Origin: a virus
Strand: one strand, 5' to 3'
IMG/VR virus record: IMGVR_UViG_3300004369_000014
Coordinates: 1 to 63,116 of that record
Length of the DNA stretch: 63,116 bases
The notes under the pieces were generated by a model. The model searched no databases. It worked only from the letters and a program-made list of their open reading frames with translations, and was not told the origin of the DNA. Shown here one piece after another: positions 7,484-30,771 of this stretch (position 1 is the stretch's first letter; the number at the start of each line of letters is the position of its first letter). A program made the position numbers and the translations under genes.

Positions 7484-8277
7484 TGGTCGTACGCTCGTTG
7501 GAAGACTCGTCTGGCTTCAAATTGTTTCTCGTCGACAAGTCTACTAAAGTCGTCGTAAACGCGGTCCATCCATATCTTGCCTTTTTGGTAGCCAAATTCG
7601 TTTACATCTCTCGGAACTATGTTTCTCTCTGGGTCTGGAGAACCATGACCATACCAAGAAACGTAAGAAAGTCTAGTCCCAGAAGTCACGGTCTTCACGC
7701 AATGAGTCCCGACGTAGTTCGATGGAAACATAAGAGTTTCACCAGCGCGCAGCTCTACCTCTAAGTCGTAGTACTCAAAGTACATATTTCCGCCGGAAAA
7801 ATCGTCGTTTATCACAGATGTAGAAGACACGACGTGCTGAACTGCCGCTTGGTCTTTTGGCGTAGTTCCTGGCCTGTAATTAACGTCGTTATCGCTGTGT
7901 GAACCTAACGAGCACCCCGCTTGATACACGGAGACGTGACCTATAGTTCTCCACCAGATTGATCTAAGAGCGTCTTGGTAGACTCCAAGGTACAAAAGCA
8001 ACGTCTGATAGTTGGCTTCTTCAAGTTTTTCTACAAAGTTCTTGTCAAGATTGTCATATATGCGCGTGGGAATAGAAAAGATGTGCTCAACTGGAACTAC
8101 ATGATGACTTTTGTTAATTCCGTGAAGTAAGTTACCTTCACTGTCGTAAACAAACTCGTAGTTGTCTTGAAATGATCTTTCAGTCTCGTCGTGAAGTTTT
8201 TGTATTTCTTCGTCTAAAACTTCAAAACAAGACGAGAACTTTACTATTCCAGGGGCTAGTACAGTAGTCTCAATCAT
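7480..8277 (-). CDS. 2OG-Fe(II) oxygenase, WW-GH subgroup (copy 6)
   Basis: 265 residues from ATG at 8277; an upstream GTG at 8304 in frame would add nine residues but lies inside the preceding gene. Ligands H127 and D129 (SHSDND), H192 (THCV), R202 (GTRLSYVSW). IWWRTIGHVSVYQAG and SNYVGTHCV put it in the same subgroup as copies 3, 4 and 7, and HSDNDVNYR closely resembles HNDNDTNYR of copy 7, so these two are probably a recent tandem duplication. The start overlaps the stop of copy 7 by eight bases. It is convergent with copy 5. Confidence 0.85.
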   Translation of the reverse strand: MIETTVLAPGIVKFSSCFEVLDEEIQKLHDETERSFQDNYEFVYDSEGNLLHGINKSHHVVPVEHIFSIPTRIYDNLDKNFVEKLEEANYQTLLLYLGVYQDALRSIWWRTIGHVSVYQAGCSLGSHSDNDVNYRPGTTPKDQAAVQHVVSSTSVINDDFSGGNMYFEYYDLEVELRAGETLMFPSNYVGTHCVKTVTSGTRLSYVSWYGHGSPDPERNIVPRDVNEFGYQKGKIWMDRVYDDFSRLVDEKQFEARRVFQRAYDH

Positions 8278-9241
8278 ACGGCATGTACGTTCCGGAGGCC
8301 TCACCTTCGAACGCTCTGTCCTGCGTCTTTATCGTACTAGCATGAAACCCAAGAAGTAGATCTCGTTGAAGATCGTAATCTGAGTGCCCAGAGTCTACAA
8401 ACTTTTCATGATCTTGATGAATGAAAGGAAAATACACTGGAGGAAGCCAGTCAACACTTTCTGTTGACTCGACGATCTCCCCGTCGTGCACCATGCCGTG
8501 GCCGTACTGCGCTAGATACGTGTACCTTTCGCCGCTTTCTACCTTTGTCACAGCGTGAGTTCCGACATAGTTTGCAGGAAAAAACACGATGTCGCCGACA
8601 TCTGGCTTTATAAGAACATTAGCGTACGGGAAGTAAAATTCTCCACCTTCGTAATTGTCGTTTAGATACACAAGGGCGTTGACTACTTGGTACATCGCGA
8701 CTTCTCGTTGAGTGAAGTATCTTTGCCCGTCTTTGGTTCTGTAGTTCGTGTCGTTGTCGTTGTGTATTCCAAGCGACGCGCCGGGCACGTACTTTAAAAC
8801 GTGTCCGCGGTTTTTCCACCAAAGAGTATTGATGATCATTGGAAAAAGATCTGTGTATCTAATTAGACAACGGTACAGAGACTTTTCTGTTTCTTCAAAG
8901 AAATTAGCGATGTCGTCAGTGGTGTAGTCTTCTACTGGACCAGGCATTCCGTAGCCGCCAAGTCTCATTGGGAGACCTAAGAGCATCTCGTATGGGAACT
9001 CTCGTCCTTCTCCGTCGAGACAGTACTTCTCTCCGCCTTCTCGTTCACGTATGTCAAAACCGCATGACGGGACATACGCATGCTCGTCGATATATGGGAG
9101 AATCTTGTCTTGCTGCACGTCTACAACGGAATGAAACTGAATAATTCCAGATCCGTGGTTCGTGTAGCGAGTAGAGGCGATCTTTTCAACGTCGCCGTCA
9201 GCAAGTTTGCTGATCTCATATCTTCTTTTCGCGCTAATCAT
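8270..9241 (-). CDS. 2OG-Fe(II) oxygenase, WW-GH subgroup (copy 7)
   Basis: 323 residues. Ligands H160 and D162 (IHNDND), H229 (THAV), R239 (GERYTYLAQYGHG). Core strand LNDNYEGGEFYFPY. LWWKNRGHVLKYVPGASLG marks the subgroup. The N-terminal 130 residues and the 60-residue C-terminal tail are longer than in its neighbour, copy 6. The ATG follows the stop of the methyltransferase-like gene by one base, so the two are likely translated from one leftward mRNA starting near 11881. Hydroxylase with unknown substrate. Confidence 0.85.
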   Translation of the reverse strand: MISAKRRYEISKLADGDVEKIASTRYTNHGSGIIQFHSVVDVQQDKILPYIDEHAYVPSCGFDIREREGGEKYCLDGEGREFPYEMLLGLPMRLGGYGMPGPVEDYTTDDIANFFEETEKSLYRCLIRYTDLFPMIINTLWWKNRGHVLKYVPGASLGIHNDNDTNYRTKDGQRYFTQREVAMYQVVNALVYLNDNYEGGEFYFPYANVLIKPDVGDIVFFPANYVGTHAVTKVESGERYTYLAQYGHGMVHDGEIVESTESVDWLPPVYFPFIHQDHEKFVDSGHSDYDLQRDLLLGFHASTIKTQDRAFEGEASGTYMPYD

Positions 9242-12041: not shown

Positions 12042-12527
12042 ATGGCTATACAGATTAAAGTACGCCGAGGTACGGCGTCCGAATGGACTTCTGCAGATCC
12101 TACACTTGCCGCGGGAGAGATTGGCGCAGAGACAGATACTTCAAAGTTGAAGGTTGGTGATGGATCAACCGCTTGGTCGTCTCTCGCGTACACAGCAGCA
12201 GACGCATCTGCAGCGTATTCGTCCGTGAACACGCAGGCTGGCACGACCTATACTTTTTCTTCCGGTGACGCTACGTCTTTGACGTCGTTTACGTCTTCCT
12301 CGGCGGTTACAGCAACAATACCGCCAAACTCCTCAGTCGCGTTTGCAGTAGGTTCACGTATTGATCTGATACAAAAGGGTACTGGAGAGGTGACAATTGC
12401 CGCTGGAGCAGGTGTTACCGTCAACTCCACCGCGTTGTTCAAGACTCGGACTCAGTACAGCATAATTTCTGCAATTAAACTTGCAACAGATGAATGGGTG
12501 CTTACTGGAGACCTAAAGGTTGTGTAG
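12042..12527 (+). CDS. Tail fibre-like protein with an MTD-type N-terminal motif
   Basis: 161 residues. The first 50 residues (KVRRGTASEWTSADPTLAAGEIG, then KVGDGSTAWSSL) are the trimerising N-terminal motif found in the major tropism determinant and many fibre proteins: RRGT followed by LxxGExGxxxDTxxLKxGDGxTxWxxL. The rest is a small Ser/Thr/Gly-rich beta domain like those that close short fibres. It is likely a structural protein attached to the tail or virion, perhaps for receptor binding. It is followed directly (TAG then ATG) by the next gene. Confidence 0.75.
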   Translation: MAIQIKVRRGTASEWTSADPTLAAGEIGAETDTSKLKVGDGSTAWSSLAYTAADASAAYSSVNTQAGTTYTFSSGDATSLTSFTSSSAVTATIPPNSSVAFAVGSRIDLIQKGTGEVTIAAGAGVTVNSTALFKTRTQYSIISAIKLATDEWVLTGDLKVV

Positions 12528-13158: not shown

Positions 13159-13989
13159 TTGATTCTTGGACAAGAACAACAGAAAGAATATCTTTCTAAG
13201 CAATACCCGATGATTGCGACACCGTGTTATGGCGGTCTAGTCCACGAGCCGTATCTTCGTGGAATGACCAGCTTAGCCGGGGCAGCAGCAGGTATTGGTC
13301 TTGCTGTGAACATGGCAACGATAGTGAATGAAAGTCTGGTCACTAGAGCTCGTAATGAACTCGTTAAGTACCTTACGATGACTAACTGCACTCATCTTTT
13401 CTTTATCGACGCAGACATATCATTTACACCAGATGACGTAATTAGAACTATTCTTCACGACAAGGACGTAGTTGTAGGCGCGTATCCGCTTAAGAAAGTG
13501 AGATGGGACCAAATAGATACGTCCAAAGCAAGGTCTGCAGAGGATGTGCAGCGAATGGCCACGGACTATGTCATCAACATTAAATTTGCCGATGACAAGC
13601 AAAAAGAGACTGGACAAGTTCCAGTTGTTGATGGTCTGATTGAGGTACACGACGCTGGCACTGGTTTCATGTGTGTTAAGCGTCATGTCATCGAGAAAAT
13701 GATTGAAGCGTACCCGGAGTCTCACTACATGAAGGAACCAAAGCACGTTATACACGAGGGAGATGACTGTAAACGCTGGGCGCTGTTCGATACAATGATC
13801 GACGAGGATAATCGCTACTTGTCGGAAGACTACACCTTCTGCAGACGCTGGCAGATGCTCGGTGGAAAAATTTGGCTAGACCCCACGACTAGACTCTCTC
13901 ACATCGGCACTCACATGTTCGAGGGCCACTCTATGTTTGACATACATCAAACTGATGTCTCAAGCCCGCAAGGACTGATTGGTGGCTGA
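13159..13989 (+). CDS. GT-A-type glycosyltransferase-like protein
   Basis: 276 residues. MIATPCYGG, then ESLVTRARNELVKYL, then THLFFIDADISF (the DxD metal motif) and DVVVGAYPLKK define a GT2/GT-A nucleotide-sugar transferase fold; GTGFMCVKRHVIEKM and SEDYTFCRRWQMLGGKIWLDP give the acceptor loop and the ED catalytic region. Such proteins in phages modify virion proteins, host surface sugars or DNA bases. The start is TTG at 13159, with CGGAG seven bases before; the next ATG (13210) has no ribosome site. It overlaps the next glycosyltransferase and follows two fibre genes, so glycosylation of tail proteins is possible. Confidence 0.75.
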   Translation: MILGQEQQKEYLSKQYPMIATPCYGGLVHEPYLRGMTSLAGAAAGIGLAVNMATIVNESLVTRARNELVKYLTMTNCTHLFFIDADISFTPDDVIRTILHDKDVVVGAYPLKKVRWDQIDTSKARSAEDVQRMATDYVINIKFADDKQKETGQVPVVDGLIEVHDAGTGFMCVKRHVIEKMIEAYPESHYMKEPKHVIHEGDDCKRWALFDTMIDEDNRYLSEDYTFCRRWQMLGGKIWLDPTTRLSHIGTHMFEGHSMFDIHQTDVSSPQGLIGG

Positions 13990-14887
13990 GCCTCTAGGCG
14001 GCACCGAGCTGCAACGAAATTGGCTTCTTAGCAATCTTCCTAAGCACATTACAGACAGTGTGCAGCTAATCTGTAGACCAGACGACCTAGATATGAGCAA
14101 GAAGAGGGTTCTGTGGGTGCAGGACATGCCTCTAGATGTTCCGTTTCTTACAGACGAAAAATCAAGATCGTTGTTTTCAAAGATCGTCTTTGTCTCCGCG
14201 TGGCAGCAAATGGTGTTTAATCTCAATGCGGGGGTGCCGTTCTCAGACGGAGTTGTCATAAAGAATGCTGTAGATCCAATACCTAGAACGCAAAAGAGCG
14301 ACGACGTCATACGTCTTGTGTATCATCCAACTCCTCACCGCGGTCTTAAGATTCTTGTACCGGTGTTCGAAAGACTATCTGAGAAGTACGACAACATCCA
14401 TCTCGACGTGTTCTCGAACTTTGACATCTACGCTCGTAGTCACCTAAACGCGCAGTTCGAGACTCTGTATGAACGTTGCCGTCAGCACGACAAGATTACG
14501 TACCATGGTTCACAGCCAAACAGCGTAGTCAGAGACGCGCTTGCTGAGTCGCATATCTTTGCATACCCGAGTATTTGGCGCGAAACGTCGTGCATGTCAG
14601 CCATGGAAGCTATGACTGCTCGATGTATAACCGTTGCTCCAAACTACGGCGCCTTGCCGGAGACTCTAGCAAACTTCAACGTCTCGTATGACTGGACAGA
14701 AGATCAGGGTGCTCATGAGCGTCTCTTCGAAAAGAAACTCGAGCAGGCAATAGAAATGATCGGAAAAGACGAAACCGAAGATTTACTTGACGCTCAGAAA
14801 TCGTATGCTGATCGTTTTTATAGCAAAGAAATTCGTCTTCACCAGTGGGTTGAATTTCTTAGTTTTTTGATACAAGACAACTACTAA
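13982..14887 (+). CDS. GT-B glycosyltransferase (GT4-like)
   Basis: About 301 residues. KIVFVSAWQQMVF in the first half and HRGLKILVPVFERL, KITYHGSQPNSVVRDALAESHIFAYPS and RETSCMSAMEAM in the second are the usual GT4 C-terminal landmarks, including the E-x7-E nucleotide-sugar motif. The N-terminal domain is short for GT4. GTG at 13982 is preferred (AAGGA seven bases before); TTG at 13979 is possible. The 5' end overlaps the upstream GT-A gene. Donor and acceptor are unknown. It ends 40 bases before the convergent WhiB gene; no clear terminator lies between. Confidence 0.75.
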   Translation: MAEPLGGTELQRNWLLSNLPKHITDSVQLICRPDDLDMSKKRVLWVQDMPLDVPFLTDEKSRSLFSKIVFVSAWQQMVFNLNAGVPFSDGVVIKNAVDPIPRTQKSDDVIRLVYHPTPHRGLKILVPVFERLSEKYDNIHLDVFSNFDIYARSHLNAQFETLYERCRQHDKITYHGSQPNSVVRDALAESHIFAYPSIWRETSCMSAMEAMTARCITVAPNYGALPETLANFNVSYDWTEDQGAHERLFEKKLEQAIEMIGKDETEDLLDAQKSYADRFYSKEIRLHQWVEFLSFLIQDNY

Positions 14888-16440: not shown

Positions 16441-17682
16441 TCATTTCTGATAGAAGTTCTTCTTGACGAAGTTCCGGCTAAAGCCCTTGTCAGTGTCGAG
16501 AAGGTACTCGCGGTCACCGATCAGTTCACCGCTCGGTCCGCTTGGTTGGCCACTGAGTGCCGCTCTCGCGGACTCTCCGATCCAGTTAGCGGCTTGTACC
16601 GCCACTGCTTTGCCCCACGTCGACCCTAGGGCAGAATAGCCCTTGACACTAGCGAACTCCCAGTCGTCTGGTAGACCTTGAATTCTTGCTGCCTCACGAT
16701 GGGTAATTCGTCTTGGCTGCGTCGGATGCACAACGTGTTCGAGAGCGCTACCTGTGAGAACGTGGCAATGAGAATTTGCGTCCCAGCGGGCTGGAAGAGA
16801 AAATCCCATGTAGAAGTCGTTCTCACGGATCTTCTCTTCTTTGTTGCTCCACGACTGAGGGAACTTGTCTCCGTTTTTTTCTACGGCAAGTTTTAGTGCC
16901 TCGTTGAGAGGCATCATCTGTTCCCAGCCTTCGTTACCGATGATGTCAAAGATTTCTTTGATTCTCTGCGACTCAAGATTATCTTTGTTCACGTGGCCAT
17001 CAACCAGTCCGCTTTGATTTCTTAGATGAGAAACGAACTTCGTCCCTTCGGAGCAGTACGGCTGCTTGTCCCACGTAATCTCAAGACGCTCGAGGTCACC
17101 GATCACATCCATCATCGTAGGCAGCTCTGCTGGGGTCTCGACGTGCGCGCCGAATGGCATACCTTGCTCTACAGCTACCCAGAAGTATCTCATTCGATAT
17201 GAGAATCCACCGACCTGGAGATTGTTGTGCTTGACGTGATACAGGTCGTACTTCTTTCCAGATAGCTCTTCTACCATGTCTCGGTACTGAACCATCACGT
17301 TGCGCCCCTGCGTGTACGCCTGCTGCACGCATTCGAAGATAATCATCTTCGGTTGAATCTTAGCAGCGTACTTCATAAACGCTCGTGTGTGCTCGTGCGC
17401 CTTAGCGTCTGGCCCTCTGTTAGCAGGGCCTGACCACAGCGACCAGCCAGAACACGGCGGGCAGCCAAGAACTACGTCAGCTTCTTGAGTAGGCCAGTCT
17501 TCGGGGTCGTCGGAGAAATAAGACGCCCAGTTGTCACCGAGGTGCTTTCTGTTTGCTTGAGCCACCGGATTACCGAAGTCCAGCGTGCCTGTCCGTAGTG
17601 ACATGTCAAACCCGGAGTTTACAAATCCAAGACTCATAAATCCAGCCAAGCCGTTGCAGTCGATAAAGTTTAGATCACTCAT
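16441..17682 (-). CDS. C5-cytosine DNA methyltransferase
   Basis: 413 residues. GCPPCSGWS carries the catalytic C77 (motif IV), FECVQ (E117) is motif VI in place of the usual ENV, YRMRYFWVAV is motif VIII, RRITHREAARIQGLPDDW is motif IX, and GKAVAVQAANWIG is motif X. SAM-binding motif I is the N-terminal CNGLAGFMSLGF. About 150 residues between VIII and IX hold the target recognition domain. It methylates a specific cytosine sequence, protecting phage DNA from restriction or marking it. With an hmC pathway in the same genome its target might be remaining cytosine. The start overlaps the upstream stop (TAATG). Confidence 0.9.
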   Translation of the reverse strand: MSDLNFIDCNGLAGFMSLGFVNSGFDMSLRTGTLDFGNPVAQANRKHLGDNWASYFSDDPEDWPTQEADVVLGCPPCSGWSLWSGPANRGPDAKAHEHTRAFMKYAAKIQPKMIIFECVQQAYTQGRNVMVQYRDMVEELSGKKYDLYHVKHNNLQVGGFSYRMRYFWVAVEQGMPFGAHVETPAELPTMMDVIGDLERLEITWDKQPYCSEGTKFVSHLRNQSGLVDGHVNKDNLESQRIKEIFDIIGNEGWEQMMPLNEALKLAVEKNGDKFPQSWSNKEEKIRENDFYMGFSLPARWDANSHCHVLTGSALEHVVHPTQPRRITHREAARIQGLPDDWEFASVKGYSALGSTWGKAVAVQAANWIGESARAALSGQPSGPSGELIGDREYLLDTDKGFSRNFVKKNFYQK

Positions 17683-17993
17683 TAGCCCTCCGAGTTCTTG
17701 TCATCAGAAATACCGACTTCATAGCCGCACGCGGCGTAACCCGCGATGTCTGTCCACGTGTCTGCTTGAAATCCGTAGTTTGACGCGTGGCGAGCAAGTT
17801 TTACGGCAATCATTGCCATTGCGACTTCTTCTCTTGTAAACTTTCTGCCAAAGATCACGCTCCACATCTGCGCGATTCTTCCGAAGTTTTCTTCAGGCCC
17901 ACCGTACTGTTTGTCTCGTTGGCCGGAGATGATCTTTGCAGCTTCAATAAGCATCTTCTCGCGGTCACTGACTTCTTTCTTAAGGCCGCTCAT
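17682..17993 (-). CDS. DUF6378-like protein
   Basis: 103 residues from ATG 17993, which overlaps the upstream stop (ATGA). AKIISGQRDKQYGGPEENFGRIAQMW, then REEVAMAMIAVKLARHA and DTWTDIAGYAACGYEV, is the pattern of the DUF6378 family, common in phages and without assigned activity. Soluble, helical, with acidic residues in a pattern reminiscent of all-alpha NTP pyrophosphohydrolases, but without a full motif. Co-transcribed with the neighbouring small genes. Confidence 0.7.
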   Translation of the reverse strand: MSGLKKEVSDREKMLIEAAKIISGQRDKQYGGPEENFGRIAQMWSVIFGRKFTREEVAMAMIAVKLARHASNYGFQADTWTDIAGYAACGYEVGISDDKNSEG

Positions 17994-18187
17994 GAGTCTC
18001 GTTTGACGCGTATCGTGCATCTTCCGACGTAATAGTCTCGATCTTTAGCGCGTTCTATGACTACCTCAGAATCAGGGGGTAGCAGCGGGCTAGAGCTCTC
18101 AGACACGACACCCCACTCGTACGTTAGCTGCTCTAGAACTTCAGACAGTGTATGCCCAGAAGTTTCTAAATTGACTAGGATTCGCAT
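17990..18187 (-). CDS. Hypothetical small protein
   Basis: 65 residues from ATG 18187, which overlaps the upstream stop (TAATG). MRILVNLETSGHTLSEVLEQL then a beta-rich segment SEVVIERAKDRDYYVGRCTIRVKR. Not recognised; no motif. Both ends overlap neighbours, which supports coding. Confidence 0.6.
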   Translation of the reverse strand: MRILVNLETSGHTLSEVLEQLTYEWGVVSESSSPLLPPDSEVVIERAKDRDYYVGRCTIRVKRDS

Positions 18188-18412: not shown

Positions 18413-18643
18413 TTAGATTCTTTTTTCTAACTTATACGGAGGGTGACGAGCTTCGTGTATTTCTGGAGTGATTTCATCGATAGTTTTCACGTAGACATCT
18501 CCTGAAATGACGCGCAGAACTTCTACCATTCTTCCGTTATGCAGCGTCCCCGCGTCTGTTGCGTACGCGTTTCTTTTCACGCGTAGAACCTGTCCCGGCT
18601 CTATAGCAGAAGGATCAACGTCTACCCAAGTTTCACTCGCCAT
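18413..18643 (-). CDS. Hypothetical small protein, SH3-like
   Basis: 76 residues from ATG 18643; the longer frame to 18859 is out of the question since it would cover the dUTPase gene. ETWVDVDPSAIEPGQVLRVKRNAY, then HNGRMVEVLRVISGDVYVKT, suggests a small beta-barrel (SH3/KOW-like) that might bind nucleic acid. No family named. Overlaps the upstream gene by 11 bases. Confidence 0.55.
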   Translation of the reverse strand: MASETWVDVDPSAIEPGQVLRVKRNAYATDAGTLHNGRMVEVLRVISGDVYVKTIDEITPEIHEARHPPYKLEKRI

Positions 18644-19121
18644 TGGCCAATTTTTCGATTGCCGGCGGGCATGAAACTTCTGGGCAAGAAGAAACGTCGT
18701 AATCGTCAAGAGCCCTAAAACACTTCTTGCACTTGACTCCGTCGTCAAGAACCCTGTAGCCCTTGCGCTGTCTTTCTGCGTTGACCTGCATTTTCTTGAG
18801 ATATTCTTCGTCAAGCTCCGCGTCTGTTGCGCCAGCGGCGCACAGGATGTTCGCGACAAAGTGAAGAACGTCTACACACTCCTTGACGATTTCTTTTCTA
18901 TCAGCGTACGGATTGTCGTGCTGCCAAGGCTTCCACGAGATCGCCTTACGAACCTCGGCGAGTTCATCATCGATAGCAAGCATGTTCCACCGAAGGTACT
19001 CGATGAGTTGAGTAAGATCTTCGGGCGCGTCGCTATGAAACACAGAATAGTCTGCGCCGTAGACATCGCGCTGAAGTTGAGACGTTTTCTCAAGCCAAGA
19101 GTTAAACAGATACGTTGTCAT
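18633..19121 (-). CDS. All-alpha dUTPase/dCTPase (T4 gp56-like)
   Basis: 162 residues from ATG 19121 (an in-frame TTG at 19136 is the alternative). The all-alpha NTP-pyrophosphohydrolase residues are E53 and E56 (DDELAEV), WKPW (63-66), E81 and D84 and H87 (KECVDVLHF), and the end NAERQRKGY. WKPW, the ExxD-x-x-HF helix and the N--RQ-RGY ending are shared with T4 gp56, which hydrolyses dCTP and dUTP to supply dCMP and keep cytosine out of DNA. A zinc-ribbon-like tail (C131, C134 and two further Cys) is added. Specificity for dCTP versus dUTP cannot be read from sequence. It fits an hmC pathway. Confidence 0.8.
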   Translation of the reverse strand: MTTYLFNSWLEKTSQLQRDVYGADYSVFHSDAPEDLTQLIEYLRWNMLAIDDELAEVRKAISWKPWQHDNPYADRKEIVKECVDVLHFVANILCAAGATDAELDEEYLKKMQVNAERQRKGYRVLDDGVKCKKCFRALDDYDVSSCPEVSCPPAIEKLANGE

Positions 19122-20145
19122 GTGAGTCCAATCCAATCGTTTGTAGTAGATGCCATATTGCGTTTTCTGGGTCTTTTATAGAAGACAGATAAGCAGACCG
19201 TTGCGCCTCAGCGAGATCGCGTCTTTCATCAACAGACATGTGTTCGACGGTCGCCGGTATCGCTGCCCACGCGTCCCCGAGCGCTAATGAATAGCGCCAT
19301 TCAGTGCATATAGGGAGTTGATGCTGCATCGCCTGAGAGTATCTACGCGACCACCAAGGAGCTCCAGATGGTCCTGGAGAAATAATAGCGCCGATGCACG
19401 AGCGCATGACCATGTCCGCGTCTACGTCTGACGACCCTTTGTTTTGCTTCATCAAAACGTAGTCGTTCTTCATCGTGCTCGACACAGACTTGAACCACTT
19501 AGTCTTATCGTTGTCGACGCACCACGATGAGCGAGAAAGGCTACTTGACGTAGCACGAGGCTCACGTAACCTAAACGCATCAAGATTCACGCCTCTGAGA
19601 TTACCTCTTGCCATCCCGAACAGCAGATTTTCAACCTCTTGCGTTTCCACGAATGGCGTGCTTGGGTACAAGGTCACAGTGTACCACTCGTACAGAAGAA
19701 ATTCAACTGCCTTCTCTACTTTAGCAAGAGCTTTTTTGTCTTCAAAGATTCTTGAGCGCTCTTTTCTCGCCGAGTACAGGGGCTTAAACAGAGAAAGAAA
19801 AGATTTGTCTACAGCCGTTAGATTTCTTCTAACTGAGCTGGGATCTGTAGTGTCTATAGCTAGAACTAAGCGACTCGGATCCGTGTTGATCAGCGTAGAG
19901 ATCACACTTAACGCTCCGTAAGCGTAATTAGCAGTCAAACTAAGAATAGGAGAAACTCCAACAATTACCTTATCAAAGGCAGTCAGATGCTCGTACCCCA
20001 TGTCTGCACTCGGGGCGCCTATGGTGACATCAACACCAGCATCACTAAGCACTGAGTGAATTTCTCCGCTAAACGAAGCAGATCTTTGTATCAAGTTAGG
20101 CGAGCACTGCGGCGCTGTCATGCCAGTGATGAAGACTGACGCCAT
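19102..20145 (-). CDS. GT-B-like protein, paralogue 2 (candidate base glycosyltransferase)
   Basis: 347 residues. It is a paralogue of the upstream gene: VFITGMTAPQ at its start aligns with ILMTGFTALQ there, and PWWSRRYSQAM (about 258-268) followed by LGDAW aligns with GWWRSRFMYAA followed by LGDAY. Fold looks like a GT-B glycosyltransferase (two Rossmann-like halves, a late WW-x-R signature). No named family; T4 alpha- and beta-glucosyltransferases are the functional analogues I would compare. The homology sets the start at ATG 20145, a 28-base overlap with the upstream gene. Glucosylation of hmC is inference from context. Confidence 0.55.
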   Translation of the reverse strand: MASVFITGMTAPQCSPNLIQRSASFSGEIHSVLSDAGVDVTIGAPSADMGYEHLTAFDKVIVGVSPILSLTANYAYGALSVISTLINTDPSRLVLAIDTTDPSSVRRNLTAVDKSFLSLFKPLYSARKERSRIFEDKKALAKVEKAVEFLLYEWYTVTLYPSTPFVETQEVENLLFGMARGNLRGVNLDAFRLREPRATSSSLSRSSWCVDNDKTKWFKSVSSTMKNDYVLMKQNKGSSDVDADMVMRSCIGAIISPGPSGAPWWSRRYSQAMQHQLPICTEWRYSLALGDAWAAIPATVEHMSVDERRDLAEAQRSAYLSSIKDPENAIWHLLQTIGLDSHDNVSV

Positions 20146-21353
20146 TCGTGCCCCCCATTTTTTGACAGTTTGTAACCTTTGTCTTCTGCAACAGCTCGGT
20201 TGATTATTTTGTTTACGTGCGAAACAAAAGAATCGTACGATGGCATATGAGCACGAAGCGTGTCTGCCTGCGCTGTTGCTGCCTGCTCGAGCTCAGAGTC
20301 GGACATCGACTCGACCTGCTTGATTGTAAGCTTGTACGCGTCACCAAGAGGCGCGCCTTCTCCCTTATCTGTAACCAAGATCGAACGGACTCGCGCTGCG
20401 TACATGAAGCGGCTTCTCCACCAACCGCTGCCTGCGTGCGGGTACGGAGGCGAAAGAATTCCCCAGTAGTTGTTGTAAAACGCTAGAACGTCTTCTTCGC
20501 TATCAAGCCGTTGACCGCCAAATTTCTTAATTAGCTTACGACTGCCAACAATTTCTACAGGCCACTCAGGATTCTTTTTCTCAAGCCACGTGTCGTGAGG
20601 CATAAGAGCGCCAAGAACCCATGCACGACTCTTCTGTTCTGCGGGCAGCGGCTCGCATGAGTTTAGGATGTCGTAGATTGTAGCGCTTGGATCGAGTGCT
20701 TCTATTCCTGCCATTTCCTTAGGCATTCTCTTTCGAACAAGAGATCTGTCGCCGAAGCTGTACATAGGGCATACTGGCACAAGGCCTCTTTCCCATCTGT
20801 CAGCAAGAAGCGCTCTACCGGACTCGACGAGCTGTCCTTCATATTCTCTAACATTGTCGTCATTGTCGTTAAAGAAGTATCTGCCAATGCCGCACTTCTT
20901 CTCCGCCTCGGGATTTGCCTTGACTATGCGATCGAGCGCTGCCTTTGCGTCTTCGTATGAGTAGTACGTCGCGTCTTCGCTACCACGCAGGGCAGAACCA
21001 GAGAGAAGATACTTGTAGAGTATCTCTGGGTGACGAACAAGTGAACGACATGCGTTGAATACCGAGGCAAACTGCCAATCGTCAAAAAATCCAACAGCGG
21101 GAAGACCGGAGCTCAGCGTATATAGTGCGCCCATAGCACCTTGACGGCCGTTCAAGGAGTTCAACGGACCTAGATTTACCCACGCCGCGTCGTAAGACGA
21201 AAGATCTTCGCCTGGAGTAACTCGTCTCCAGTCTACAGAGTGGCCACTCTCCTCGAGAGCTTTTACGATCGAGGCAGGTACGTCTATCTTTTTGATAGTG
21301 CGATGCTCTGTATTGATCTGCAGAGCAGTAAAGCCTGTCATAAGTATTTTCAT
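20118..21353 (-). CDS. GT-B-like protein, paralogue 1 (candidate base glycosyltransferase)
   Basis: 411 residues. KILMTGFTALQINT, a helix, SYDAAWVNLGPLNSLN and LPAVGFFDDWQF form an N-terminal Rossmann half like that of T4 beta-glucosyltransferase in topology; WPVEIVGSRKLIKKFG and SGWWRSRFMYAARVRSILVTD (about 305-325) form the second half. AAGGAAG precedes the ATG. Paralogous to its downstream partner, and both lie 1.4-4.9 kb from the C5-methyltransferase. Two enzymes could attach sugars in different linkages or build a disaccharide, as in T-even phages. This role is inferred. It could instead glycosylate a protein. Confidence 0.55.
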   Translation of the reverse strand: MKILMTGFTALQINTEHRTIKKIDVPASIVKALEESGHSVDWRRVTPGEDLSSYDAAWVNLGPLNSLNGRQGAMGALYTLSSGLPAVGFFDDWQFASVFNACRSLVRHPEILYKYLLSGSALRGSEDATYYSYEDAKAALDRIVKANPEAEKKCGIGRYFFNDNDDNVREYEGQLVESGRALLADRWERGLVPVCPMYSFGDRSLVRKRMPKEMAGIEALDPSATIYDILNSCEPLPAEQKSRAWVLGALMPHDTWLEKKNPEWPVEIVGSRKLIKKFGGQRLDSEEDVLAFYNNYWGILSPPYPHAGSGWWRSRFMYAARVRSILVTDKGEGAPLGDAYKLTIKQVESMSDSELEQAATAQADTLRAHMPSYDSFVSHVNKIINRAVAEDKGYKLSKNGGHEWRQSSSLA

Positions 21354-22806: not shown

Positions 22807-23766
22807 TCACTCACTTCCTTTTATCTCTGATGATTGATAGTAGCCGTACGGGTCGTCTACCTTGTATAGCTCTGTGATCGCGTGTTCGGCAGCGCTTCCG
22901 TCGTCGAACAGAGGGCAGATCCCAAAGAATTGGCACTTCCACTTGCAATCTCGGCTGGGACGAGGATACGCCACAAAGTGGTGATCTCCTCCTTCATCCA
23001 GCGCCTTTCTCACGCTCAGCATGTCGCCGATCGTTCCGTGTATCCGATTCCAAAATGCGCGTAAAGCAAAAGAGTTATGTCGGACTTCAAACTGATCATA
23101 GAAAGGAGGCTTAGCGTTGGCTGTCCTCTTTACTTTCTTCAGCATTGTGAAGATGCCGCCCTCACAGCGCTCGCCTTCCTTGTTCTGCGCGGCCTCGAGA
23201 AGCATGTACGTAAGTATTTGCTCGTTCATATGGGCAAGGCTCGCAAACTCCGCGAACGATCCGCCAACTGTCTTAAAGTCTCTAAACATGCGAACGCCAT
23301 CGGCTTTGCGACGAACACGCATGTCGAGCTTGCCTTGAAGCTCAACCTGGCCGTCGAATAGAGGTAGACTGATAATTTCTTCTGTAGAAATCATCTCGAG
23401 TTCAGCGTCAATGCCGTTTTCATCTACCCACTGCAGATATCCTTCGAGCATGATTCTTCCAAGTTCAGCCTCGGTCTCAAGCTCAACGGTGTCGCGGTAG
23501 CTGTCGATCAATGCTTGCTTGTCTGCTTGAACGTACTTTGCGTACGCTTCAAGAAGCGGCGTGCCGGTCGAGTAATACTCGTCAAGTGCGGCATGAACTC
23601 GTGACCCAAGAGCAAGAGCTCCAGTGAAATTCTCAGTCTGGGGCTTCAGCCGTCTGTAGTACGCTAGCCACCACTTTCTTCTACAGTCTTTGAAAGTCTG
23701 TATCTCAGAATTAGAAAGTCTGATGGGCTCTTTAGAAAGAGTTACCGGGGTTTCTGTGATTGTCAC
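22807..23766 (-). CDS. Cas4/RecB-like PD-(D/E)XK exonuclease
   Basis: 319 residues. LSNSEIQTFKDCRRKWW and GSRVHAALDEYY (H58) are the N-terminal motifs; GKLDMRV (D148) and FRDFKTV (D163, K165) form the nuclease active site. C28 together with C274, C278 and C284 make a probable [4Fe-4S] cluster as in Cas4 and AddB. It degrades DNA ends, working with the Sak4 ATPase and SSB. GTG at 23766 starts one base inside the helicase stop (TAGTG). No CRISPR array is nearby, so an adaptation role is unlikely. Confidence 0.85.
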   Translation of the reverse strand: MTITETPVTLSKEPIRLSNSEIQTFKDCRRKWWLAYYRRLKPQTENFTGALALGSRVHAALDEYYSTGTPLLEAYAKYVQADKQALIDSYRDTVELETEAELGRIMLEGYLQWVDENGIDAELEMISTEEIISLPLFDGQVELQGKLDMRVRRKADGVRMFRDFKTVGGSFAEFASLAHMNEQILTYMLLEAAQNKEGERCEGGIFTMLKKVKRTANAKPPFYDQFEVRHNSFALRAFWNRIHGTIGDMLSVRKALDEGGDHHFVAYPRPSRDCKWKCQFFGICPLFDDGSAAEHAITELYKVDDPYGYYQSSEIKGSE

Positions 23767-25565
23767 TATGATCCAGTCTTTTCTTGAAGAAGCATCTTCA
23801 GTAGTTGATCCTTGTCTTTTACAACTTGCTCAAAGTTGTCAGCCTTCGAATCGAGAACTTGAATAACTCGCTCTTCGATTGTTCCGTCGGTGACATAGTC
23901 AGTGATCACGATACTGTCGTGAATTTCACTTCCAATTCTGTGCACTCTGTCTAGTGCCTGCTTATAGTCGACCAGTGACCAGGGACGCTGAAGCATGATT
24001 AGCCGACGCGCCGCCGTTAGGGTCACACCGACGCCACCCGCTTGAGCGGTGAATAGAACCCACTTAGTAGTGCCATTCTGAAAATCGTCGATCGCCTTTT
24101 GACGTTCTTCTTCGGTCTGCGCGCCGGTGATTAGACCATGTGGAATTTTGGCCTTCTCAAGACGAGCGCTAAGAAGCTCGATGAGCTGCCTAGATACTGC
24201 GCACACAGCAACGGAGTCTCCTTCAAAGTCGCCATTTTCAATGTCGCTCATGATCGCATCGATCTTGCACGAAGGTTCGGAAAGACGAAGACTTATTTCT
24301 CCGGAAATCTCGTCCACATCTAGAGTAGCGTAAGAACTCGCGAACTGAAGAAGACGGATAGTTTGAGTGAGAGGGCTAGGCGCCGCGATTGCGTCGTCAC
24401 CCTCGAGAACAGCAATCATCGAGTCGCGCATTTCTTCGTACGCCTTGCGCTGCTTAGTCGACATTTCGACGTCGCGTCGTTCTTTAATCACTGGAGGCAA
24501 CCAAGGTAGCACTCGTGCCTTAAGCATTCGTCGCATTCTTGGATTGATAGCCGCGTAGAACTCGTCGGTCATATGAGGCTTAACGCCAAGCACCATCATG
24601 CCACCGAACGCGTTGAGCATGGTATCAACCATGCGGTCGATCCAGCGAGTCTTGCTCGGCCATTCTTCCGGAGATAGCCAGTGCAAAATCGTCCAAAGAT
24701 CAAGAACGTTGTTTGCAATCGGAGTGCCTGTCAGCGCGAATCTAATGTCTGCATCGCCGGTCGCTGCCCACAGCGCGCGAGTCTGCTTGCTCTTTGGATC
24801 CTTTGACCTATGGATCTCGTCCGCAACGACTGACTTAAAGTCGATCTTGTTTAACTCGCGAATATGAACCTCGCAGCGATTCTCGCTTACCTTGTCGTCG
24901 TGGCCGCCGCAGTCTACGCAGCGCGCGAGTGCAACAGATCCATAAGGCGCAAGTCTTGAATGTGCTCTCAGCGACTCCCAGTTGATGACGTAGACATCTA
25001 CATCTTCTTCGGCGAACTGTTTGCGCCGTAGAGCCGCGGAACCACTGATGACCTGAACCTTGACTCCAGGCCACCACATCTCGAACTCTCTCTTCCAGTT
25101 TTTCTTGAGAGTGTTCGGGCAGACTACAAGAGCTGGAAAGACTTGTTCTCCTCTAGTGAAAAGCTCAAACAGCGCGCGAATAGTCTGCGCTGTCTTCCCT
25201 AGCCCGGGTTCGTCAGCAAGAAGAGCGCGTCGTGCAGCGGCAAGAAACTGCACGCCGGCACGTTGATGTGGGAACAGCTTTTCGTCTCCACCAGCGTCTT
25301 CGAGCTCACGTAGCTCGTTGCATGGGGCAACTCTTGTTGCTAGTTCGTTTTTTGCCCACTCGGTGAGGTTTGGCCCAATCTGAAGATCAGACTTAAAGAC
25401 CGACCGAAGAGCTAGGCACGTTGCCCAGCCGAGTGGCGCCTTCCAGTGCTTGTCAGAGGCCGACCACGTCGCTCCTGGGATACTTTTACACAGTTCTTTA
25501 TACCGCCACTCAGTGTCAATTTTGATCGACTTACCGTCGGCAGACAACTCAACGTCAACTGGCAC
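23766..25565 (-). CDS. SNF2/SWI-like DNA helicase with an inserted zinc finger
   Basis: 599 residues. A 90-residue HARP-like N-terminal domain (WRYKELCKSIPGATWSASDKHW), then FPHQRAGVQFL, Walker A DEPGLGKTAQ (about 117-126), VVADEIHRSKD (DEAH-type), FALTGTPIANN, and the C-terminal VLFTAQAGGVGVTLTAA and LDRVHRIG motifs of SF2/SNF2 ATPases. A Cys cluster (CVDCG...CEVH, about 218-235) is inserted before motif II. Such proteins remodel stalled forks, like SMARCAL1 or T4 UvsW. GTG start with AGAGG seven bases before. An extended -10 promoter lies 30 bases upstream. Confidence 0.9.
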   Translation of the reverse strand: MPVDVELSADGKSIKIDTEWRYKELCKSIPGATWSASDKHWKAPLGWATCLALRSVFKSDLQIGPNLTEWAKNELATRVAPCNELRELEDAGGDEKLFPHQRAGVQFLAAARRALLADEPGLGKTAQTIRALFELFTRGEQVFPALVVCPNTLKKNWKREFEMWWPGVKVQVISGSAALRRKQFAEEDVDVYVINWESLRAHSRLAPYGSVALARCVDCGGHDDKVSENRCEVHIRELNKIDFKSVVADEIHRSKDPKSKQTRALWAATGDADIRFALTGTPIANNVLDLWTILHWLSPEEWPSKTRWIDRMVDTMLNAFGGMMVLGVKPHMTDEFYAAINPRMRRMLKARVLPWLPPVIKERRDVEMSTKQRKAYEEMRDSMIAVLEGDDAIAAPSPLTQTIRLLQFASSYATLDVDEISGEISLRLSEPSCKIDAIMSDIENGDFEGDSVAVCAVSRQLIELLSARLEKAKIPHGLITGAQTEEERQKAIDDFQNGTTKWVLFTAQAGGVGVTLTAARRLIMLQRPWSLVDYKQALDRVHRIGSEIHDSIVITDYVTDGTIEERVIQVLDSKADNFEQVVKDKDQLLKMLLQEKTGS

Positions 25566-26433: not shown

Positions 26434-28256
26434 CCGTACTTGTCGCCCCACGTCTCAAGAGGCCCGTCGATGCCAGCAGTAAGCGGCACCGCCCATCCTT
26501 CAGATGTTGTCATGCACTCTTTGACTGCGTTCATTACCTCGGTGACGTCTTTCCTTGGGGCTTGTAGAACGATCTCGTCGTGCACTGGCACAATGAGAAG
26601 CTCGGTAAGATCCGCTTGATCGAGTTTGACCAAGTTAGCCTTGAACACTTCAGCAGCTCCACCCTGAATTAAGTAATTCACGAGAGTGTACACGCGGTCT
26701 TCGTCACACGGGAGCCGGCGGCCAGTCCAGGTGTAGACGTAACCTTGGCCTTCGGTCTTTAGACGACGCATCCCGATGTCTTCAATCTGTCTTTGGAAGT
26801 ACGCCATTCCCGGAAAGCGATTGTCAAACGCGTCTGAGACTGCGCGCATTTGAGGCTCAGCAACTCCGGCAGTCAGTGCTTGTTTCGCAACACCGGCTCC
26901 GTAGAGTCTGCCGTAAACTGTACCTTTGATCAATCCGCGACGTTTATCTGACTTTGTCATTGACGGGTCGTTGTAGATCTCGCGGCCAATCTCCGTGAAC
27001 GGGTCAGACCCTGTCGCGTCAGCGTGATTGAAAAGATTGATGAGGTTTGGATCGCTTGAAAGACTTGCAAACATGCGAAACTCGACCTGGTCAAGGTCTG
27101 ATGTGATGATGACATGGTCTTCATCTTTGGGGATAAACGCGCGGCGTACTACGTCGTCTCCCTTCGGCAGAGTCTGGAGCGCAGGATTAGTGATCGACAT
27201 GCGACTTGTTCGTGCGCCAAGAGTCTTAACAGATGGATGAACTATCCCGTCTATCGACTCGGTCAGAAAGTTACTGAAATACGTGTTTGCGAGCTTGTCG
27301 GCTTTTCTCTGCTTAAGTACTGTGTCGGCAAGAGCCGAAATTTCCGCGTTGTCGTTTATAGACAAAAGCTTTAGCTGATCTTTAGTGCACGACTTTTGAC
27401 CAGTCGGAGTGTATTCAGTAATTTCAGCACCAAGTGACTCAAACAGTCTGACGAGTTGAACGTTGCTGGTTATCGACACGCCGTTGTACGTGTCTTTAGC
27501 CCATTTCTTTACAGACTCGGTATACGCTGTGAGCTCGTCGTACTTCTTCTTGGAGTACTCGAGATCTACACGTGCGCCGTTGATCTCCATGCGCGTGACA
27601 ATCTTTCTTGCGGCCATCTCGAGTTCGTAGGCTTTACGGTACGGGCCTTCGGGCCCGCACTTATCCCAAAACAGCTCCCAAAGACGAGTCGTCAACACAC
27701 AGTCGAGAGCGCCGTACGACCAGTACGGTTGAAAGTTTGTAGGTACAGTTCCCCATGTCCAACCGTTCTTGACGAGCTCAACGTCAAGAGTTTCTTGTAA
27801 GGCAACAGCACGGCTATCAACGTGCAGCGCGGCAAGACGCTTTAGAGCACCAGAGCCAAGTGGATCAACAACGTGGGCCATAATCATTGTGTCGTGCGCA
27901 CGATGCCAAGGAATGTCCCAGCGTGACTGAATAGCAAACCATCTTGCCTCGAACGCAATGTTGTGACATATCAGCGGGCCGTCAAACTTGTCCATTGCCT
28001 CGTAGAATACGCCTGACCATTCTTCCCAAGGTATTGACCAGCCTTGTTCTCCGTCTCCAACCTGCACAAGACGAAGTCTTCCATGCCACGGCGACAGCGC
28101 GTGATCTCTCGGATTGCCCGGCAACTCGCCTGTTTCTGTGTCGACTGATATAGCGTTGTGAGGTCGACGTTGGCCAAGCCAGTGAATAAAATCTGCAGCT
28201 TTCTGCGAAGTATCAACAAGATGGAGTTGCACGTTTGATAGATCAGCAGTCGCCAT
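26430..28256 (-). CDS. polA: Family A DNA polymerase with 3'-5' exonuclease
   Basis: 608 residues from ATG 28256 (GGAG five bases before; GTG 28262 is possible). SVDTETGELPG (exonuclease I; D39, E41), a polymerase motif A DLDQVEFRMFASL, a motif B helix RRGLIKGTVYGRLYGAG and motif C VPVHDEIV. In the motif B helix the residue that decides dideoxy sensitivity is Tyr, as in T7 polymerase, rather than Phe as in E. coli Pol I. No 5'-nuclease domain is present. It copies the phage genome, with the helicase, SSB and resolvase around it. If hm-dCTP is made, this enzyme must accept it. Confidence 0.95.
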   Translation of the reverse strand: MATADLSNVQLHLVDTSQKAADFIHWLGQRRPHNAISVDTETGELPGNPRDHALSPWHGRLRLVQVGDGEQGWSIPWEEWSGVFYEAMDKFDGPLICHNIAFEARWFAIQSRWDIPWHRAHDTMIMAHVVDPLGSGALKRLAALHVDSRAVALQETLDVELVKNGWTWGTVPTNFQPYWSYGALDCVLTTRLWELFWDKCGPEGPYRKAYELEMAARKIVTRMEINGARVDLEYSKKKYDELTAYTESVKKWAKDTYNGVSITSNVQLVRLFESLGAEITEYTPTGQKSCTKDQLKLLSINDNAEISALADTVLKQRKADKLANTYFSNFLTESIDGIVHPSVKTLGARTSRMSITNPALQTLPKGDDVVRRAFIPKDEDHVIITSDLDQVEFRMFASLSSDPNLINLFNHADATGSDPFTEIGREIYNDPSMTKSDKRRGLIKGTVYGRLYGAGVAKQALTAGVAEPQMRAVSDAFDNRFPGMAYFQRQIEDIGMRRLKTEGQGYVYTWTGRRLPCDEDRVYTLVNYLIQGGAAEVFKANLVKLDQADLTELLIVPVHDEIVLQAPRKDVTEVMNAVKECMTTSEGWAVPLTAGIDGPLETWGDKYG

Positions 28257-28725
28257 TGTCACTCCATATTACGTCAAGTTTGATGCCGCACGCGCGCAGA
28301 TAGTCGAAAACTACTTCAGGCTCGCGATGACGGTCTTCAGGTCTGACGACGCACACAACCTTGGACACTCCAGAGTTGCTGACTAGCTTCGCACACTGCA
28401 TACACGGCGCGCTTGTTACGTACAGCGTTCCGTTTAGAACGCTAGACCTGTCGACATACATCAACGCATTTGCCTCGGCGTGTATCGCCGGACAGGCGTC
28501 GTAGAGATTATCGAGAGCCGATTCTCCACGCGCTCTCTGGCACCAGTTGATACAGTCTCCCTCATGGGGCCAACTGGCCGCTGGCCCATTGTACCCCGTT
28601 GCGCATATTCTTTGGTTTTCTGAAACTATTACTGCGCCGATCTGGGCTCTAGAGCACCTAGATCTTCTACTAACAGTTTCAGCAACGCTCAACCACGTTT
28701 CATCCCACGTTGGTCTGTTGATCAT
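28243..28725 (-). CDS. dCMP deaminase
   Basis: 160 residues from ATG 28725 (GTG 28731 is in frame). AIHAEANALMY (H82, E84) and APCMQCAKLV (C108, C111) bind zinc; RSRCSRAQIGAVIV and ICATGYNGPA are the dCMP-deaminase family motifs. It converts dCMP to dUMP. In T4 it feeds dTMP synthesis; here no classic thymidylate synthase is visible in the window, so host ThyX or ThyA would have to use the dUMP. It overlaps the polymerase start by 14 bases. Confidence 0.9.
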   Translation of the reverse strand: MINRPTWDETWLSVAETVSRRSRCSRAQIGAVIVSENQRICATGYNGPAASWPHEGDCINWCQRARGESALDNLYDACPAIHAEANALMYVDRSSVLNGTLYVTSAPCMQCAKLVSNSGVSKVVCVVRPEDRHREPEVVFDYLRACGIKLDVIWSDNGDC

Positions 28726-28727
28726 TG

Positions 28728-28925
28728 TCACTCGTCATCTTCGTCCGTTACCTCAAGCATCGAGGATATTTCTTCAGTCATTCCCATAAATAGCATTCTC
28801 GCTACTAAGTCTAGCCCATCTCGTCTGCTAAAGCCAGCCTTACGCAAAGTCGTATAGACCTCGTGCATTCCGATAGCGGCTTCTTCCATCGGTGACGCGT
28901 ACTCTTCTTCCCAGTCTTCGCTCAT
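28728..28925 (-). CDS. Hypothetical small acidic protein
   Basis: 65 residues. Acidic ends (SEDWEEEY, EVTDEDDE) around a helical GMHEVYTTLRKAGFSRRDGLDLVARML. Not recognised. It overlaps both neighbours (ATGA at its start; four bases at its end) and is therefore translated with the nucleotide-metabolism genes. Possibly a small adaptor; no evidence beyond composition. Confidence 0.6.
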   Translation of the reverse strand: MSEDWEEEYASPMEEAAIGMHEVYTTLRKAGFSRRDGLDLVARMLFMGMTEEISSMLEVTDEDDE

Positions 28926-29785
28926 TGACTTGCCTTTCGTGCGTTTTTGGCTGCTGCGTCAATCATCACGTCGGCGTACCAAGAAGCATTCTGCGACAAT
29001 CTTGGCAAGATTCTATCATCGGTGACACCGAGAAGGGCGTCAAGAGCCTGCGTCTCTACTTCGTCCCACGACGATCCTTGTATGAAAGGAATCTTCTGGC
29101 TTGAAGAAGTTTTAGTCAAGTTTTCGGCAACTTCGTAATGTTGCTCATAGATATGAAGAGAACCGACATGATGAGAGTACGTCCCAGGCTGAATTCCTAG
29201 AACACTGCACATCGCTAGTTGCACCCTAGTGAACTGAAAGAAATCGTAAGCAGCGCCAAGCCAAACGTCATTCGACCGCATGTAGACGCTCATGTTAAGC
29301 TTTCCGTTGCGAATTCTAAACTGATGAAGAATAGTGCAAGGGTAGTCGCGCTTGTTTGGCTGATTGTCGTACTCCGGGTTCCATATCGTGATGACAGCCT
29401 GACGGGTGTCAGAATCGTTCTTTAACTTGTCGACAGCTTCTTTGTACTGGCCTTTTGTTCTTAGACCGTAGGCTCCGTGAAATATACCGTTATCCTCTGC
29501 GTAGTTTATAAACTGAGGTCCAACGGCGATCACAAGCTCAGGCATAGAAACCCCAGAAAGAAGTTGACAAGCTTCAACTGCACCGATCCCTGGGACGGCT
29601 CCACGGCCAACACCGAGCGGTAACGTCGAGTAGACGTTGTCGATAAAAATTGTCGCGTCTTCAATTTCGCGAGTCTTCATACCGCGTGGAGAGACAGTTC
29701 GTCCGTTACGAAGAACATGGTGCACAAGATCTACGTAGCCGTTTACTCCGTCTTCGATGTGAATAGAGGTTACGGAAGTATCCAA
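28922..29785 (-). CDS. ThyA-family enzyme, probably dCMP hydroxymethylase (T4 gp42-like)
   Basis: 287 residues. A thymidylate-synthase fold: DSDTRQAVI, catalytic C150 in YPCTILHQF, MRSNDVWLG and VGSLHIYEQH. In thymidylate synthases a fixed Asn lies 31 residues after the Cys (C146 and N177 in E. coli) and selects dUMP. Here residue 181 is Asp. T4 dCMP hydroxymethylase has Asp there (C148, D179), and also shares Cys-Thr after the nucleophile, MRSNDV and VGSLH. So the enzyme most likely hydroxymethylates dCMP. The start is TTG at 29785 with AAAGG before it, inside the end of the kinase gene. Alternative: a thymidylate synthase with altered specificity. Confidence 0.8.
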   Translation of the reverse strand: MDTSVTSIHIEDGVNGYVDLVHHVLRNGRTVSPRGMKTREIEDATIFIDNVYSTLPLGVGRGAVPGIGAVEACQLLSGVSMPELVIAVGPQFINYAEDNGIFHGAYGLRTKGQYKEAVDKLKNDSDTRQAVITIWNPEYDNQPNKRDYPCTILHQFRIRNGKLNMSVYMRSNDVWLGAAYDFFQFTRVQLAMCSVLGIQPGTYSHHVGSLHIYEQHYEVAENLTKTSSSQKIPFIQGSSWDEVETQALDALLGVTDDRILPRLSQNASWYADVMIDAAAKNARKASQ

Positions 29786-30771
29786 TTTACGTACCTTTCG
29801 TCGATGCCGTACGCGTAGCTTTGCATCGCTTCTCCGTACAGCTTTTTGTCAGCATGATGAAATCTTCTTACGTATTGCGGATGCGGAAAAACAATGTACT
29901 CCTGTGCGCACAGAGCTTTAGTCTTGACGTGCCGATCAGCAAGTCTACCAAGAACGATAATCTTTGGCCAATGCAGCACTTCAAGAAGAATGTCTAGTCT
30001 TTCGCCGGAAAAATCTTCAGAGTTGATAATTCCTACGTCTCGCCAGAGAGGCTCTGGAAGAGCGTTTAACAGATAGTCCCCAGAGTTACCGCCGACTGGC
30101 ATGAACGGAAGTATCGTCTCGGTCGGGTCTTTTCTCTTATCGCCAATAAGAAGAACTCTAGGGCGCGCTGGGCCGATGTACTCTGGAAACGCGGCGATAC
30201 CTGCCGCGTCATCGGCCCGCTCTGCCGCGGCAGTAATGATCGCAGACGCAACACTTTTAACGTACTTCTCTCCGTCAGGCACCTCTATCTTTGCCTGAAT
30301 AGAGTGAGTTTTTGCCTGTGTAGACTCGTAAAGAGACAGAATTTCTTCCATTTCTTCGACGTCTACAAAATCATCACCACGAGAAAGAATTCTCTTCTTG
30401 ATTACGTCAAGTGGCTGATAGACCCAGAACTGGGCCATACCGCGAGACGCCATAAACAGCTCAACCCAGCGCCAGCCGGCGATGCCCAGAAGGCCATAAC
30501 CGTCTGTGTTTGTCTGCGGGCGCTTGAGCTTGGCGTAGGTGCACTCGCCCCAGTGCCATCGATCCGCTACGGCAAGTTCCTTAGTCCAGTCGATGCTTTC
30601 AATATCAACCGCGTACTCGTGCAGCACCCAGCGACGAGTTAGCTCCTCGGGTCTACCCTTGTGAAACTCGTGAATACGAGAAGCAGGTGACTCAGAGCGT
30701 AGTTGCTCTTTTATCGCCGCGGCTATTGAACTTTTGCCAGAAGCGTCGGTGCCTTCAAGAACAATGAACAT
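29770..30771 (-). CDS. Deoxynucleoside monophosphate kinase fused to a UDG-like domain
   Basis: 333 residues. Residues 1-185 are a thymidylate-kinase-type dNMP kinase: FIVLEGTDASGKSS (P-loop 7-15), ADRWHWGE (the DR motif) and a lid SRGDDF. Residues about 198-310 resemble the uracil-DNA-glycosylase superfamily: VLLIGDKRKDP, PFMPVGGNSGDYLLNAL, a mid strand IIVLGRLADRHV and FPHPQYVRRF (the HP-containing end motif). No catalytic Asp/His pair is certain, so the domain may bind rather than cut. A kinase able to phosphorylate hm-dCMP (T4 gp1) would be the next step after the enzyme encoded downstream. Confidence 0.75.
   Translation of the reverse strand: MFIVLEGTDASGKSSIAAAIKEQLRSESPASRIHEFHKGRPEELTRRWVLHEYAVDIESIDWTKELAVADRWHWGECTYAKLKRPQTNTDGYGLLGIAGWRWVELFMASRGMAQFWVYQPLDVIKKRILSRGDDFVDVEEMEEILSLYESTQAKTHSIQAKIEVPDGEKYVKSVASAIITAAAERADDAAGIAAFPEYIGPARPRVLLIGDKRKDPTETILPFMPVGGNSGDYLLNALPEPLWRDVGIINSEDFSGERLDILLEVLHWPKIIVLGRLADRHVKTKALCAQEYIVFPHPQYVRRFHHADKKLYGEAMQSYAYGIDERYVNWILP

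Follow-up and report, generated by a model that had tools for sequence, protein, structure and literature searches.

A tandem pair of paralogous GT-B glycosyltransferases, predicted to act on C5-hydroxylated cytosine in viral DNA

The closest described systems for the locus presented here come from phage T4 and from the RB69-like phages. The two DNA glucosyltransferases of T4, AGT and BGT, are regarded as GT-B paralogues with one common acceptor (PMC13216743). In RB69-type arabinosylation (5-ara-dC and 5-ara-ara-dC; ORF003c), two transferases are thought to act sequentially on a C5 oxygen: the DNA of Mosigvirus NP contains mono- and di-arabinosyl cytosine and the phage has two putative transferases, in RB69-like phages the sugar added first is believed to be the acceptor of the second transferase, and the thymidylate synthase (TS) homologue of RB69 has been named 5-hydroxy-dCMP synthase in a 2026 paper (PMC13390438).

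The window (the whole stretch of DNA analyzed here, 63,116 nucleotides; IMG/VR virus record IMGVR_UViG_3300004369_000014) encodes two adjacent proteins, termed GT1 and GT2, within the following set of genes:

20118..21353, minus strand: GT1, 411 aa; GT-B glycosyltransferase, predicted first-sugar transferase for C5-hydroxylated cytosine in DNA
19102..20145, minus strand: GT2, 347 aa; paralogous glycosyltransferase of the GT-B fold, predicted to transfer the second sugar (or to form an alternative linkage)
18633..19136, minus strand: all-alpha NTP pyrophosphohydrolase (PF08761, dUTPase_2, E 2e-11; phrog_18650, E 1e-18), MazG-like in the annotation of relatives
17682..18020, minus strand: DUF6378 protein (PF19905, E 7e-27), conserved and syntenic between the GT cassette and the C5-methyltransferase
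16441..17682, minus strand: C5-cytosine DNA methyltransferase (C5-MTase; PF00145, E 6e-22), with PPC and R-x-R motifs in the translation

A first-pass annotation of this DNA had described GT1 and GT2 as an overlapping, paralogous, GT-B-like pair. Both open reading frames, their overlap of 28 bases (20118–20145, minus strand) and the motifs it listed are all present in the window, with TGFTALQ, WWRSR and LGDAY in GT1 and TGMTAPQ, WWSRR and LGDAW in GT2. The layout, which it compared with that of the T-even glucosyltransferase genes, differs from T4, where the two genes lie ~11 kb apart, whereas those of GT1 and GT2 are adjacent and overlapping. The proposed paralogy is borne out both by BLASTP of the two sequences alone (E 1e-4, in the C-terminal motif block) and by alignment of the two family profiles with hhalign (probability 100%, E 4e-41, nearly full length); on this sequence evidence, the similarity is beyond chance and the two are true paralogues.

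Profile searches, which had been proposed for each protein, recover this paralogy but place neither protein in an informative family of Pfam, NCBIfam or PADLOC and give no match to PDB sequence profiles; PHROGs gives matches for GT1 only, all to families of unknown function. A megablast search of the GT region against phage records returned no match, and a scan of genome contigs found no bacterial relative. No pairwise or HMM sequence match connects T4 BGT or AGT with GT1 or GT2 (the identity to BGT is 10–12%), and the similarity to T4 BGT detected by hhalign is weak and N-terminal only (probability 18–44%). For RB69 ORF003c, the hhalign probability is 0.2%, and a search of RB69 with the GT1 profile gives no match.

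A resemblance to the T4 enzymes is seen instead in the predicted structures. The AlphaFold2 models are confident (pLDDT 87.1 and pTM 0.85 for GT1; pLDDT 93.0 and pTM 0.90 for GT2), and in the structural comparison with T4 AGT and BGT, which the first-pass annotation had also suggested, the top PDB match of each protein is T4 BGT (GT1: Z 17.7, 3.8 Å over 300 residues; GT2: Z 18.6, 3.8 Å over 296 residues). T4 AGT, itself a GT-B enzyme, scores lower, at a Z of about 15.5. The next GT-B family after BGT (SenB, a non-DNA enzyme) lies just 1–2 Z units lower, and so the predicted fold of both proteins is firmly GT-B, but the lead of BGT is by itself no proof of function. The first-pass annotation had named a predicted fold other than GT-B as a refutation, and its reading withstands this check. 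An invariant aspartate, Asp91/92 in GT1 and Asp98 in GT2, stands after a strand and in a similar place in the models, compared by position along the fold; the catalytic aspartate of T4 BGT is Asp100.

Relatives of GT1 that are 68–82% identical to that of the window occur in 80 freshwater viral contigs. In the contigs that could be scored for the downstream gene (72 of the 80, with at least 700 bases after GT1), GT2, identified on viral contigs as the neighbor of GT1, follows directly in every case (72/72), usually with a 4-base overlap (51/72); the 28-base overlap of the window is unusual. Across these same contigs, GT2 is only 33–40% identical to its counterpart in the window. Some match ranges in GT1 suggested insertions (inteins; e.g., contigs L035 and L074), and these were taken as second alignments to the GT2 paralogue. 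In the tree, GT2 forms a monophyletic clade set apart from GT1 with a support of 100, and the GT2 sequences of the Gordonia phages and of DSL-LC01 fall inside this clade, which indicates that the duplication predates those phage groups. Actinomycetia phage DSL-LC01 and the Gordonia phages Sixama, Phendrix, GodonK, Forza and GMA2 all have GT1 and dCMP-type TS homologues, and GT2 is found in DSL-LC01, Phendrix, GodonK, Sixama and the Forza group; the regions examined also contain MazG-like and C5-MTase genes. Their GT1 proteins are only 22–30% identical to that of the window, and the homologues are annotated just as hypothetical protein or glycosyltransferase. These closest relatives, together with a WhiB-like gene and other neighbors, point to an actinophage as the source virus.

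The recurrent gene order is RecA, SSB-like, GT1, GT2, MazG-like, DUF6378, C5-MTase, and pyrimidine-dimer glycosylase. Many phage GT-B enzymes modify a virion protein or a host surface molecule and not DNA, and a separate glycosyltransferase pair of the window beside tail genes (13159–14887) may do so. For GT1 and GT2 we consider such a target very unlikely, as their cassette lies among RecA, SSB-like, helicase, PolA and nucleotide pyrophosphohydrolase genes, away from the tail genes, and GT1 tracks a dCMP-type enzyme and, in T4-like phages, takes the place of AGT/BGT, as described below. The separate pair (13159–13989 and 13979–14887, both plus strand) is also overlapping but unrelated, with matches to phrog_1574 and to the GT4-type family PF00534; a protein containing an Mtd_N (tropism-determinant) domain is encoded nearby (12042–12527), and the pair is possibly involved in tail or surface glycosylation.

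A hydroxylated cytosine as the acceptor is suggested by a second set of genes in the window:

29770..30771, minus strand: thymidylate-kinase-like protein (PF02223, E 0.003, below the cut-off; phrog_761, E 2e-11), overlapping the TS homologue gene
28922..29785, minus strand: thymidylate-synthase homologue, dCMP-type (PF00303, E 1e-24), predicted 5-hydroxymethyl- or 5-hydroxy-dCMP synthase
28243..28731, minus strand: dCMP deaminase (PF00383, E 2e-20; phrog_174, E 6e-44)

The TS homologue, which is divergent and the only one in the window, has the CMP 5-hydroxymethylase MilA as its best PDB match (E 4e-20). It retains a catalytic cysteine (Cys150) and has an aspartate, Asp181, at the position of Asn177 in E. 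coli ThyA; this exchange is the mark of cytosine-nucleotide enzymes (T4 gp42, MilA). An Asp-type homologue is present in all 11 of the GT1-bearing phages that were checked (the window, DSL-LC01, Phendrix, Sixama, GMA2, Forza, ctIqW946, Aeromonas phage 25, FBB1, Rgz1, and PSTRCR_127), whereas the controls, namely the true thymidylate synthases of RB69 and Rgz1 and the dUMP enzyme of SPO1, keep the asparagine. The phage of the window is thus predicted to make a C5-hydroxylated cytosine nucleotide, which adds a substrate context beyond the nearby C5-MTase noted in the first-pass annotation. The motif RSNDV in the TS homologue is T4-like, as opposed to the RB69-like RSQNC, although this is only suggestive as to a hydroxymethyl or a hydroxy product. 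Glycosylated 5-hydroxycytosine is reportedly the subject of a 2025 preprint by Lee et al., which could overlap with the present findings. The dCMP-type aspartate also occurs in an enzyme of Pseudoxanthomonas phage PW916 annotated as deoxyuridylate hydroxymethyltransferase (L191:583-1401), and hence this dUMP-type annotation may be wrong.

The association of GT1 with such enzymes extends to phages of both described types. Aeromonas phage 25 and Erwinia FBB1, both T4-like, have an Asp-type enzyme 55–60% identical to T4 gp42, and none of the GT1-bearing records searched, these two included, yielded a detectable homologue of T4 AGT or BGT. In Morganella Rgz1, the GT1 homologue lies inside the arabinose/sugar cluster equivalent to that of RB69, and the Asp-type TS homologue is 81% identical to that of RB69. 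GT1 relatives therefore occur in both hmC- and hoC-type phages, and the family accompanies both kinds of C5-hydroxylated cytosine. In contrast to the RB69 type, no sequence similarity of the GT1 family to ORF003c was found, some GT1 relatives have a UDP-galactopyranose mutase instead, and no arabinose-5-phosphate isomerase cluster was recognized among the genes examined near the GT pair.

With a C5-MTase close by, the hydroxyl could alternatively be made on the DNA itself, by methylation and subsequent oxidation by a TET-like 2-oxoglutarate (2OG) oxygenase, prior to glycosylation by the pair. The window has a cluster of three 2OG-Fe(II) oxygenases (6782–7483, plus strand; 7480–8304 and 8270–9241, minus strand; phrog_61, with PF13640 for the two minus-strand genes), one of which (8270–9241) has a weak Tet_JBP score (19.8 bits; cut-off, 34.9). 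The best match of these oxygenases is to the general PF13640 family; they are encoded at a distance from the replication module and are more likely protein hydroxylases than TET enzymes. Furthermore, the dCMP-type TS homologue already accounts for the hydroxyl, and the T4-like GT1 phages that were tested have no C5-MTase; we regard this route as extremely improbable. The C5-MTase looks intact and is conserved across the actinophage module despite the prediction that cytosine is already C5-substituted; its presence fits poorly with a complete replacement of cytosine, and partial replacement is one possibility.

The BGT-first folds and the dCMP-type enzyme support the DNA-glycosylation reading of the first-pass annotation, with the hydroxyl predicted to arise at the nucleotide level and not via the C5-MTase. 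GT1 and GT2 most likely belong to a cytosine-hypermodification module and glycosylate the DNA after replication; GT1 would attach the first sugar, and the second would probably come from GT2. We infer from this context DNA as the acceptor, as well as the sugars, their linkage and the order of the two enzymes. In the proposed pathway, the dCMP-type TS homologue would produce a C5-hydroxylated dCMP (5-hydroxymethyl or 5-hydroxy), and a kinase together with a dCTP-clearing pyrophosphatase would lead to the incorporation of the modified cytosine into DNA in place of cytosine. The thymidylate-kinase-like protein is a candidate for the former role, as kinase for the modified dCMP, and the product of 18633..19136, the gene that immediately follows GT2 in most contigs, is a candidate dCTPase/dUTPase that may clear unmodified dCTP. 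After replication, GT1 would place a first sugar on the C5 oxygen and GT2 would probably add a second sugar onto the first, and the resulting sugar coat would block host nucleases.

The division of labor between the two enzymes could also follow that of T4 AGT and BGT, in which case GT1 and GT2 would share one C5-hydroxylated cytosine and form different linkages or act in different sequence contexts. T4 provides the precedent of two GT-B paralogues with one acceptor (PMC13216743), and the GT1 and GT2 models match BGT about equally. However, no GT2 without GT1 was seen among the phages searched, the matches to GT2 being confined to GT1-bearing phages, while GT1 occurs without GT2 in Aeromonas phage 25, FBB1, Rgz1 and ctIqW946. 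GT2 also diverges far faster than GT1 (39% vs. 72% identity on the same contigs), and the second transferase of RB69-like phages is believed to use the first sugar as its acceptor (PMC13390438). The restriction of GT2 to GT1-bearing phages and its faster divergence favor a dependent second step, and we consider the shared acceptor less likely, although it is the main alternative. The two-sugar reading is plausible; the nested occurrence of GT2 fits with a second sugar, although it is no proof.

Two GT1 alleles, 31% identical to each other, occupy one locus: the window type and a DSL type, the latter found at the same locus in 12 contigs, half of which (6/12) have a UDP-galactopyranose mutase. 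Within the window-type contigs, the median identities are 72% for GT1, 87% for RecA, 66% for MazG, 70% for the C5-MTase and 39% for GT2, and between window-type and DSL-type contigs they are 31%, 86%, 64%, 66% and 37%, respectively. As GT1 is more diverged between the types and its neighbors are no more so than usual, these comparisons demonstrate allelic exchange of GT1 between phages. GT2 is the fastest-evolving gene among those compared; in the tree, the DSL-type GT2 sequences are nested among those of the window type, and by sequence GT2 was not part of the GT1 swap. The mutase gene lies between GT1 and GT2 in DSL-LC01 and beside GT1 in FBB1 and Aeromonas phage 25; none is present in the window. 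A swap of GT1, sometimes together with the mutase, would change the inner sugar, and variation of the outer sugar would come from the fast-evolving GT2. We tentatively propose that a tandem GT-B pair builds a disaccharide on the base in freshwater actinophages, with exchange of the GT1 allele with or without the mutase, and that some genomes may carry a furanose, for instance galactofuranose, on their DNA.

Exchange at this fixed locus affects GT1 but not its neighbors, and the sugar itself therefore looks like the target of selection; the exchange may serve as a natural experiment on modification-dependent defenses driving the diversity of DNA sugars. The predicted roles would extend T4-style sugar-coating of DNA to a glycosyltransferase family that lacks an informative sequence match in Pfam, NCBIfam or PDB, carried by viruses that infect abundant actinobacteria of fresh water or culturable Gordonia. 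The cultured relatives (Gordonia phages Sixama, Phendrix, and Forza) offer a direct route to testing, and the enzymes could serve as labeling tools for modified cytosine.

Additional variation is found in the surroundings of the cassette. The DSL-type contigs L175, L176 and L177, unlike nearly all others, lack a MazG-like gene in the interval from GT2 to the next conserved gene. In DSL-LC01, a tryptophan halogenase and a further glycosyltransferase are encoded just past WhiB, beside collagen-like genes (22856–25500).
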